Assembly: GCF_041435115.1 (NCBI RefSeq)
Contig: NZ_CP108046.1
Span: 9,114,001-9,178,000, forward strand
Length of the DNA stretch: 64,000 nucleotides
Direction: 5' to 3'
Source of the DNA: Streptomyces sp. NBC_00289
GTDB taxonomy: Bacteria > Actinomycetota > Actinomycetes > Streptomycetales > Streptomycetaceae
This document shows, piece after piece, positions 27,101 to 35,406 of this stretch. A program made the position numbers and the translations under genes. Under the pieces are notes generated by a model. That model was not told the origin of the DNA and ran no database searches. It was given only the letters and a program-made list of their open reading frames with translations. The first letter of the stretch is position 1, and each line of letters starts with the position of its first letter.

Positions 27101-30100
27101 CCCTGGCCCCGGCCGGTCACGGCTCGCCGCTCCTCGGCACCCACGTCGAGGCCAGCGACGAACCCGACCGGCACCTCTTCCAGGTGGACATCGACCTGCG
27201 CGACAGCCGGTTCGCGTATCTCGCCGACCACCGGGTCACCGGCGAGGTCTGGCTGCCCGCCGCCGCGTTCCTCGACATGGCCCTGGAAGCCGCGTCCGAA
27301 CTGCGGGACGCCGGCGACCTACGGCTCGCCGACATCAGGTTCGTCCAGCCCTTGCGGCTGGACCCTGACACACCCGTGCGGCTGCAACTGGTCCTGCGGC
27401 CCGCCGAGGACGGTTTCCGGGACTTCACCATCGCCTCGGCTCCGGCCGGTGAGCGGCGAGCGCCGTGGCAGCGGCACGTCACCGGGCGGGTGGCCGTCGG
27501 CGCCGCCGAACCCGCCGTCCAGGCAGGCGACGACCCGCGTGAGGAACTCGCGCGGCTGCGTGAACCAGATGTGGAGGGCGTCGACCTGGCGGCCGTCCAC
27601 GCCGGGCTCGCGGCCCTCGGCATCGACTACGGCCCCGCCTTCCGCGGCCTCGAGGACGGCCGCCGCACGAACACCGCGGCCCTGGGCCGGCTGACCGCGC
27701 GACCCGACGACGGCCATCTGCTGCACCCCGCGCTCCTCGACGCCGCCTTCCACACGGCCGCCCTGCCCGGGGACGCGCCCGAGGGCCGGGCGTTCGTACC
27801 CGCCGGAGTGGGACGCCTGCGCCACACCGCACGGCGGTCCGCGCCGGTGTGGGTGACCTGCCGGCTGCGCTCGCTGGACGGCGACCGGGCGACGCTGGAC
27901 CTGCGGTTGTGGGACGAGGACGACCAACTCGTCCTGGAGTTGCGGGAGTTCGAGCTCGCCGCCCTCTCGCCGCTGGACGGCGCCCTGTTCGAGACGCGCT
28001 GGCAGCCACGCCCCGTGGCCAAGGAGCCGGCCGTGCAGGGCAGTTGGCTGCTCCTTGCCGACGAGAGCGGAGTGGCCGGCGAACTCGCCCAGCGGCTGGG
28101 CGCCGCGTCCGTGCCGTATGTCAGCGTCCGCAGCGGCACGGAGTTCGCCGCCGAGGGGCACGGACAGTACGTGCTCGATCCGGCCGATCCGCGCCAGCTG
28201 GCCCGGCTGCTGGACGAGGCCTTCCCCGACGGGCCGCCCCGGCGGGTCGTCCAGCTGTCGGCGCTGGACGCGCCGCCGGTCACCGACACGGCGTCCTCCC
28301 AGGAAGCGGCCCGGCTGTGCTGCCTGAGCACCCTGCACCTGGTCCGTGCCCTCACCGACCGCCCACAGGGCCGCCCGCCCCGCCTGTTCATGGTGGTCAG
28401 GGGCAGCCAGGCGGCCGGTGACAGTACCGGGGTGGCCCACCCCGAGCAGGCCTTGGCCTGGGGTTTCGGCCTCGCGGTGGCGCAGGAGCACCCGGAGCTG
28501 GCCACCACGCTGATCGATCTGCCGCCCACCGGCGGCGCCGACGCCCTGTGGACGCAGCTGCGGCACGCCGACGACGAACGCCTGGTCGCACTCCGCCCCG
28601 CGGGCCGTCTCGTCCCGCGCCTGACCCGCACCCGCCCGGACGACGGCGGCCACGGCCGCGTCACCCCGGACGGCGTCGCCCTGATCACGGGCGGCCTCGG
28701 CGGCCTCGGCCGCGTCGTGGCCGAACGCCTGGTGCGCCGAGGGGCCCGCCGGCTGGCCCTGCTGAGCCGCGGTACACCCTCCCCCGACGCGGCGAGCTGG
28801 ATCGCGGCGCAGGAGCAGGGCGGGGTGAGCGTGCGTCTCGTCCGCGCCGACGTCGCCGACCGCGCGGGTCTGACGGCCGCACTGGACGCCGTACGACAGG
28901 AAGCCGGGCCCATCGCCACCGTCGTCCACACGGCCGGTGTGCTCGACGACGCCACGGTCGCGAACCTGACGGACGAACGCGTCCTGCGTGTCCTCGCCCC
29001 CAAGGTGCTGGGCACCGCCCTGCTCACCGAACTCGTCCCGGAAGCCGAGAACCTGGTCCTGTTCGCGTCGGTGGCCGGCCTTCTCGGCTCGGCCGGACAG
29101 AGCCCGTACTCGGCGGCGAACGCCTTCCTGGACGCCTGGGCCCACCATCTGTCGCGCACCGGACGCCGGGCGCTGAGCCTGGACTGGGGCGCCTGGGCGG
29201 AGGTCGGCATGGTCGCGGCCTCCGGCACCCGGGCCGCCGAGACCGGCCGGTCGGGTCTGATCGCCTTCACCCCGCAGGAGGGCGGTGAACTGTTCGACCG
29301 GGTGCTGGCCACCTCGCGTCGCCAGCTCGCCCCCGTCGCCCTGGACTGGGAGCTCCTGGCCCTCGACCCGGACGCGGCCCGCACCCGTCCCGTCCTGGCC
29401 GACCTCGTCACGGCCCCGGTGACCGGCACGCACGCCGACGACCTGGTCAGGAAGATCCTCACCGCGCCGACGGACCAGGACCGCGCCGAACACCTCGAAG
29501 CCTACGTACGCGCCAGGGTCGCGGAGGTCTCCGGCGGCACCGCCGAACCGTCCCCGACCGCGGGCCTGAAGGAACTGGGACTGGACTCCCTCATGCTGGT
29601 ACGGCTGCGCAACGCCTTCGCCCGTGAGCTGGGCGTCGAACTCCCCGCCGCCGCCATGTTCTCGGCCCCCGACCTCCGCGGTCTCGCCCGCACCCTGGGC
29701 CGGGCACTGCCCGAAAGCGCCCCCGCCACCAAAACCCCCGTCCGGCAGCCCGCCGAGCGTGCCGTGGAGGTGCCCGAGACGGCTCTGCGCCCCGCCACCC
29801 GCGATGTCGTACGGCTGTTGCGCAGCGCCCAGCCGGGCATGCCGGACCCGGCGCACGCCGTCGGCCTGGCCGTACGGCTCACCTCGACCACCACCCGCGA
29901 GACGCTCACGGCCATCCTCACCCGGCTCGCCGCACGGCACGCGGCCCTGCGCACCGGGATCGTCACCGGTCCGGAGGGCGGCCGACAGCTCCTGGTCCGC
30001 AGGGAGTCGGCGGAGCCACTGCTGCGCTGGACGCCGGTCACCGCCGCGACCGGACCCGACGCGGACGAAGGGCTCCGGCTGCTGCTGGAGCCGCCGTTCG

Positions 30101-35406: not shown

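Follow-up and report, generated by a model that had tools for sequence, protein, structure and literature searches.

What product leaves an assembly line that ends in a condensation (C) domain and an FkbH domain and is followed by a protein composed of an acyl carrier protein (ACP) and a thioester reductase (R)? The question is raised by a gene cluster in the 64,000-nucleotide stretch analysed here (the window), positions 9,114,001-9,178,000 of the 11.0-Mb genome of Streptomyces sp. NBC_00289. The cluster forms one operon-like set of five plus-strand genes (16046-37369) encoding a fatty-acyl-AMP ligase (FAAL), a polyketide synthase (PKS), an ACP-reductase protein and two hydrolases, EI and EII. 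An earlier note, made from the letters of this DNA, had proposed that a lipid-polyketide is esterified to an FkbH-loaded glyceryl unit and released reductively as an acyl-glycerol-like lipid. Its domain order, ACP-C-FkbH and then ACP-thioester reductase, is confirmed at the right coordinates and with scores far beyond chance. The note had missed an N-terminal extension of FkbH (NEX), a domain following the reductase (X), the FAAL gene and both hydrolase genes, of which EI encodes a hydrolase with a cysteine nucleophile elbow.

The foxicin core and the parts of the line

The five genes are orthologues of foxBI, foxBII, foxBIII, foxEI and foxEII of the foxicin cluster of Streptomyces diastatochromogenes Tu6028. 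They are adjacent and in the foxicin order, with intergenic gaps of 245, 63, -4 and 59 bases. In the part of the foxicin paper drawn on here, to which all later statements from it are likewise limited (Greule et al. 2017, PMC5318452), FoxBI (583 aa) was called an adenylation (A) domain and FoxBIII (945 aa) a peptidyl carrier protein-thioesterase (PCP-TE), and FoxEI and FoxEII have 378 and 259 aa. FoxBII (4807 aa) was given the order ACP-KS-AT-DH-KR-ACP-KS-AT-DH-KR-ACP-C-FkbH, where KS, AT, DH and KR are ketosynthase, acyltransferase, dehydratase and ketoreductase domains. The same paper reports the five genes in 21 further strains, from which its authors knew no foxicin-like compound. For Tu6028 and those strains, precisely the domain order of the earlier note has been in print since 2017. 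The Tu6028 record (G121, L041) contains open reading frames of 583, 945 and 259 aa, matching FoxBI, FoxBIII and FoxEII, and its FkbH domain is 84% identical to that of the window. The window protein shares the domain order of FoxBII and also its peculiar DH1 motif with Ser in place of Pro (PMC5318452); the final Ser of HxxxGxxxxS is present in the window and in all 119 PKS sequences aligned. The cluster is thus a further foxicin-type line. Genes in the window were called by simple GC-frame gene calling, and the parts of the line are the following.

16046..17890, plus strand: FAAL (foxBI orthologue), predicted to load the starter acid on ACP1; best NCBIfam matches are FAAL models, with PF00501 and solved relatives in agreement
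18136..32832, plus strand: foxBII orthologue, 4898 aa, ACP-KS-AT-DH-KR-ACP-KS-AT-DH-KR-ACP-C-NEX-FkbH by domain searches; active-site motifs invariant in 119 sequences
29488..29745 (limits approximate), plus strand: ACP3 with Ser3818, predicted donor of the finished polyketide; PF00550, Ser invariant in 119/119
29866..31047, plus strand: condensation domain, HHAVSDL at 30178-30198; PF00668, both His and Asp invariant in 119/119
31384..31800, plus strand: NEX, the N-terminal extension of FkbH, assigned by position
31801..32763, plus strand: FkbH domain, a HAD part and an acyltransferase part with the SCR-LGRG motif; TIGR01686, key residues invariant in 119/119
32896..35406, plus strand: foxBIII orthologue, 836 aa, ACP4-R-X by domain searches
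33193..33396, plus strand: ACP4 with Ser132, presumed glyceryl acceptor; PF00550, Ser132 invariant in 122/122
33670..34653, plus strand: thioester reductase R with GATGFLG and Y420xxxK424; TIGR01746 above cut-off, relative of MxaA, Tyr and Lys invariant in 122/122
34663..35403, plus strand: domain X, modelled as a beta-barrel with helices C-terminal to it
35403..36542, plus strand: foxEI orthologue, an alpha/beta hydrolase whose nucleophile elbow (AHCIG) carries Cys148; the gene shares its first 4 bases with the end of foxBIII
36602..37369, plus strand: foxEII orthologue, ordinary Ser hydrolase (GHSMG), absent from some fox-type loci

Two labels in the published scheme appear to need correction. 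FoxBI-type proteins are predicted to be fatty-acyl-AMP ligases and not amino-acid A domains: the best solved relatives of the window protein are 7r7g, 7r7f and 7r7e (about 520 bits), followed by the FAALs FadD32, FadD23, FadD28 and 3pbk. The amino-acid adenylation model TIGR01733 gives 135.6 bits (cut-off 317.4), far less than the FAAL models and structures do, and the A-domain label was rejected on these scores. FoxBIII-type proteins are predicted to end in a thioester reductase (PCP-R-X) and not in a TE. The reductase matches TIGR01746 over residues 259-586 with 244.7 bits (cut-off 213.35), its best solved relative is MxaA (4u7w, 201 bits), and searches of the 836-aa protein with Pfam and NCBIfam (E 0.001) found no TE family; the TE label was therefore rejected as well. 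The foxicin paper proposes that an amino acid is joined to the glyceryl carrier (PMC5318452), whereas an ester is proposed here; if FoxBI is a FAAL, the amino acid assigned to it is left without a loader.

Outside the core, the flanking genes of Tu6028 and the window are not shared. Among the 19 stretches compared (15 of fox type), no gene beyond the core occurs in more than eight, leaving aside F8, an antisense frame over EI. A class III aminotransferase (PRK07046 family) and an AsnC-type regulator lie directly upstream of the FAAL gene in the window (13529-15536, plus strand); neither has a counterpart in the other 18 stretches, and both were rejected as parts of the system. Two low-complexity linkers are seen in the translation of the PKS: a repeat-like one with AEAEA/ARPAE stretches between DH1 and KR1 (about 22276-22815, plus strand, residues about 1381-1560), and a Gly/Val/Thr-rich one between C and NEX.

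The predicted chain and its proposed ester

The PKS alignment comprises 119 sequences, namely the window, Tu6028 and 117 of 120 listed homologues, the other three (shorter than 4400 aa) having been dropped. Invariant in all of them are the KS Cys, the AT Ser, the DH His and Asp, the KR Ser and Tyr, the Ser of the three ACPs, the HH and D of the C domain, the Asp/Asp/Ser/Lys/Asp/Asp set of the HAD part, and Cys4823 of the SCR-LGRG motif. The C domain (PF00668, residues 3911-4304, 67 bits, whole-protein E 1.6e-18) has HHxxxD, with Leu after the Asp in place of the common Gly. FkbH matches TIGR01686 over residues 4556-4876 with 400 bits (cut-off 147) and retains HAD motifs I-IV, with DGDETLWGG at 31825-31851, as well as SCR-LGRGxE. 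No Pfam match was found for the approximately 140 residues between them, for which the name NEX is taken from the malleicyprol paper (PMC12304814). In the next protein, ACP4 (PF00550, residues 100-167) scores 46.7 bits, and all 122 sequences compared share the carrier Ser, the NADPH motif (GxxGxxG) and the Tyr and Lys of YxxxK. The residues expected for glyceryl loading, for catalysis by C and for reductive release are all in place, which supports these activities as predictions. FkbH-family proteins load glyceryl from 1,3-bisphosphoglycerate onto a carrier.

These parts can be assembled into a route to which we give about an even chance, that of a FAAL-primed two-module line releasing an O-acyl-glyceraldehyde to X and EI. 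The FAAL would load ACP1 with a short starter acid, which in foxicin is isobutyrate, and the two modules would add two units, giving a chain of the 2,4,6-trimethylhepta-2,5-dienoyl type on ACP3. FkbH would take 1,3-bisphosphoglycerate, remove the phosphate and load glyceryl onto ACP4, the carrier of the protein that follows. The C domain would then move the polyketide from ACP3 to a hydroxyl of glyceryl-S-ACP4, forming an ester, and R would reduce the glyceryl thioester and free the O-acyl-glyceraldehyde. That product would be acted on by X, whose barrel may bind it, and by the Cys-hydrolase EI; we think that EI is an acyl transferase or an aldehyde-handling partner rather than a plain esterase.

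The composition of the chain is indicated by foxicin A, whose production depends on this type of line, since disruption of foxBII abolished the foxicins (PMC5318452). Foxicin A is C18H22N2O5, a hydroxy-acetamido-benzoquinone with a trimethyl-dienoyl amide, a structure for which NMR alone was not decisive according to its authors (PMC5318452). By formula arithmetic, the quinone, NHAc, NH and a C10H15O acyl group add up to exactly C18H22N2O5, and C10H15O is the acyl predicted from isobutyryl and two methylmalonyl units with two C=C bonds; we read the 3'',5'',7'' numbering of the paper as starting at the nitrogen. Because C10H15O completes the formula, the carboxyl of the polyketide is kept as an acyl group, as is required if C transfers the chain and R reduces another thioester. 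AT1 has GHSQG/YASH and AT2 GHSLG/FASH in all 119 sequences. YASH is usually associated with methylmalonyl specificity. For FoxBII, antiSMASH predicts methylmalonyl for both ATs (PMC5318452). The motifs of KR2 and DH2 are likewise intact throughout; the chain should accordingly be an alpha,beta-enoyl one, with an alpha-methyl group if methylmalonyl is the substrate of AT2, and an open-chain O-acyl-glyceraldehyde is the expected release product.

The chain is probably short and branched and no lipid. A long-chain fatty acid entering through the FAAL, and with it the acyl-glycerol-like lipid of the earlier note, would agree with the FAAL family of the first enzyme, as known FAALs mostly take medium to long acids. 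We nevertheless regard such a product as improbable, given that the foxicin acyl leaves room for a C4 starter only and that the motif set of the modules is identical in 119 of 119 PKS sequences, the foxicin strain included; the lipid tail was rejected on these two grounds. The remainder of that proposal, glyceryl loading, ester formation and reductive release, is upheld as a prediction by the intact motifs and by two precedents.

The first precedent is vioprolide. A review, in the part drawn on here, describes FkbH in the place of an A domain and a vioprolide C domain that esterifies glycerate (PMC8949500); the arrangement highlighted by the earlier note is therefore correct but not new. VioA also has a FAAL start, and its C-FkbH module puts glycerate in ester linkage to the acyl chain; it differs in being a loading module ahead of a peptide line, as opposed to a terminal module with a reductase (PMC8949500). 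The second precedent is BurF of malleicyprol, known here from the description in the paper, an ACP-C-NEX-T-Red protein for which ester formation by C and subsequent aldehyde release were demonstrated in vitro (Fiedler et al. 2025, PMC12304814). Here, too, a fatty-acid-primed PKS with two extensions is followed by C, NEX, T and Red, and C forms an ester to a hydroxy-acyl carrier. In BurF, however, the phosphatase and acyltransferase parts of FkbH are missing, the authors suggesting that these subdomains were lost (PMC12304814), and the hydroxy acid comes from other proteins, whereas the window has a full FkbH. The BurF chain is moreover a beta-keto chain, and its product is closed to a butenolide. 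A comparable reductive cyclization, with the aldehyde closing on the acyl chain, would draw on the domain order of BurF, which is the same except for the missing FkbH subdomains (PMC12304814). It is nonetheless very improbable for the present line, because the ring closure needs a beta-keto acyl group and KR2 and DH2 are intact in 119/119 sequences; butenolide closure of the BurF type was rejected for this reason. To our knowledge, malleicyprol is the only C-plus-reductase ester line that has been worked out.

Domain X, the Cys-hydrolase and the foxicin amide

No Pfam family matches X above its cut-off; its model, a beta-barrel with helices (mean pLDDT 77.7), has structural matches to generic barrels only. 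Every aligned stretch of EI retains His147, Cys148, Gly150, His354 and Asp356 (for the elbow there are 70 such stretches, including some loci twice through overlapping fetches and therefore not 70 independent genomes), and Cys148 is placed at a strand-helix junction of a low-confidence model. A partial EI-like stretch is present elsewhere in the same genome (G000:C1:9669653-9670087, minus strand; 37% identity over about 144 residues, one internal stop).

The X profile matches 9 of 394 class-wide genomes in 3 of 137 genera, and one of the nine matches is weak, an X-like domain fused to a hydrolase (L127, 151-2091, minus strand). Relatives of this fusion protein include the full-length GMC oxidoreductases P0273, P0275, P0279, P0285 and P0287 (1039-1070 aa, PF00732 and PF05199); among the 120 relatives listed, 115 have the Cys elbow and 93 match the X profile. 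In genome G068, a separate EI-like Cys-hydrolase adjoins a GMC protein with an X-like domain at its end, the same split as between ACP-R-X and EI. Actinobacterial GMC oxidoreductases (as at L136, 15613-19747, plus strand), annotated as "cholesterol oxidase" in some sources, thus resemble the present system in combining an X-like domain and a Cys-elbow hydrolase with a redox enzyme; they differ in that this enzyme is a flavoprotein, there is no carrier protein, and the similarity of X is remote. As X and the Cys-hydrolase accompany two unrelated redox enzymes, we infer that they handle the carbonyl product of such enzymes.

This association bears on whether R stops at the aldehyde. After a four-electron reduction the product would be a mono-acyl-glycerol whose acid is short, branched and dienoic, from which EI or EII would then hydrolyse or move the acyl group. 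R is of the MxaA type, and an alcohol-forming example named in the malleicyprol paper is the R domain of myxalamid (PMC12304814); the closest solved relatives of EI by sequence are gastric lipases (35 bits). Two- and four-electron reduction are not distinguishable by sequence, and the sharing of X and EI with GMC oxidoreductases fits a carbonyl product better, if weakly; on this evidence we consider the alcohol rather unlikely.

Several points weigh against aldehyde release of a glyceryl ester. The top NCBIfam matches of the ligase are FAAL models, each of which scores below its own curated cut-off. R could continue to the alcohol, and the structural model of EI is poor (mean pLDDT 57.8). Above all, the acyl group of foxicin A is on nitrogen, the compound being an aminobenzoquinone amide in which no glyceryl can be recognised, and a simple ester is therefore not the end product in Tu6028 if the structure and the cluster assignment hold. 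A line in which C ultimately gives an amide instead of a lasting ester would fit this N-acyl, foxBII-dependent aminoquinone: the ACP4-bound unit or the released aldehyde would be aminated, or EI would transfer the ester-bound acyl group to an amine. The aminoquinone ring would take up the C3 unit, or this unit would be lost. The likely nucleophile of EI, Cys in 70/70 of the aligned stretches, would suit such a transfer, being that of acyl-transferring alpha/beta hydrolases. Polyhydroxyalkanoate synthases are acyl-transferring enzymes of this kind with a Cys nucleophile. On the other side, the conserved core contains no amino-group enzyme, the aminotransferase and AsnC genes being peculiar to the window among the stretches compared, and the sugar genes of the fox cluster are not general either; we judge the amide unlikely, though deserving of weight. 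The O-acyl-glyceraldehyde route can be reconciled with foxicin A if EI or another step shifts the acyl group from O to N or if the ring incorporates the C3 unit, or else if the core makes another product and the foxicins need further genes, or if the structure or the assignment needs re-examination.

The terminal unit on different lines

The terminal unit, consisting of C-NEX-FkbH, ACP4-R-X and EI, was found with its order unchanged downstream of four kinds of line, a recurrence that is a new observation.

Line 1: fox type, in Streptomyces and in Amycolatopsis xylanica (L061)
Line 2: FAAL and one module, in G475, from another family (L130/L131)
Line 3: four cis-AT modules with no FAAL seen, in G014 (L117/L118)
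Line 4: a second locus in G067 with no AT by Pfam in the two PKS proteins examined (L115/L116)

On the three distant lines, identity to the window is 50-58% for C, 50-61% for NEX, 58-65% for FkbH, 61-68% for R, 50-58% for X and 65% for EI. The KS domains are 40% identical in G067, up to 64% in G014 and 67% in G475; as these values are not always lower, it is module number and architecture, more than the divergence of KS, that speak for different lines. EII was seen neither in the G475, G014 and G067 lines nor in the Amycolatopsis locus.

Among 121 Streptomyces genomes, an FkbH domain at least 61% identical to that of the window occurs in 19, at 20 places, and the next best match has 42% identity. 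X was found in 17 and EI (at least 66% identity) in 18 of the 121 genomes, all of them among the 19 with FkbH. The two genomes lacking X, G001 (79% complete) and G063, are fragmented assemblies. In G033, G061, G063 and G081 parts are on different contigs, which shows their co-occurrence but not their adjacency. A search with the reductase protein, in which R and X are present by construction, yielded 52 loci. C, NEX and FkbH precede R in 45 of these, and the other seven loci start no more than about 650 bases from R. In 51 loci EI comes next, the exception ending 37 bases after X, and EII follows in 45, with six absences that are not at a contig end. Accordingly, L034, L037, L044, L045, L061 and L065 have the terminal unit and EI, with no EII within the 10 kb fetched downstream. 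Three of the 52 loci were left out of the X alignment, and three of 38 stretches out of one EI alignment.

Other FkbH loci were also encountered. The genome of the window has a second one (L110 7877-16146, minus strand; C1, about 9444-9452 kb), in which FkbH accompanies a FAAL-type ligase, KS-AT-ACP and a KAS III-like protein; this set resembles a glyceryl pathway of the tetronate type. Loci L111, L112 and L133 of G115 encode large PKS proteins (a frame of about 4100 aa) with a different FkbH domain (38% identity) and KS domains about 44-46% identical to those of the window.

A wider proposal, which we put forward tentatively and with more doubt than confidence, is that the terminal unit is a transferable ending that caps unrelated polyketides (FAAL-primed with one or two modules, four-module cis-AT, or AT-less) as O-acyl-glyceraldehydes. 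X and the Cys-hydrolase would be a general accessory of carbonyl-making enzymes, found with GMC oxidoreductases as well, that moves or rearranges acyl groups, and in the foxicins the C3 unit would enter the aminoquinone ring.

Two results merit further attention, the corrected fox scheme and the apparently transferable ending. Since 2017 the foxicin route has had an unexplained ring-forming step and, apparently, two mislabelled enzymes; once FoxBI is taken for a FAAL and FoxBIII for a reductase, the published scheme becomes testable and is linked to malleicyprol. The FkbH of foxicin type is not rare, occurring in 19/121 of the sampled Streptomyces, and a 2026 paper, in the part drawn on here, counts a foxicin-type cluster with others that yeast induces in S. 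lavendulae. If the terminal unit truly caps several polyketides with a C3 aldehyde, it would be a ready-made ending for engineering, and the pair of X and the Cys-hydrolase would gain its first functional context.

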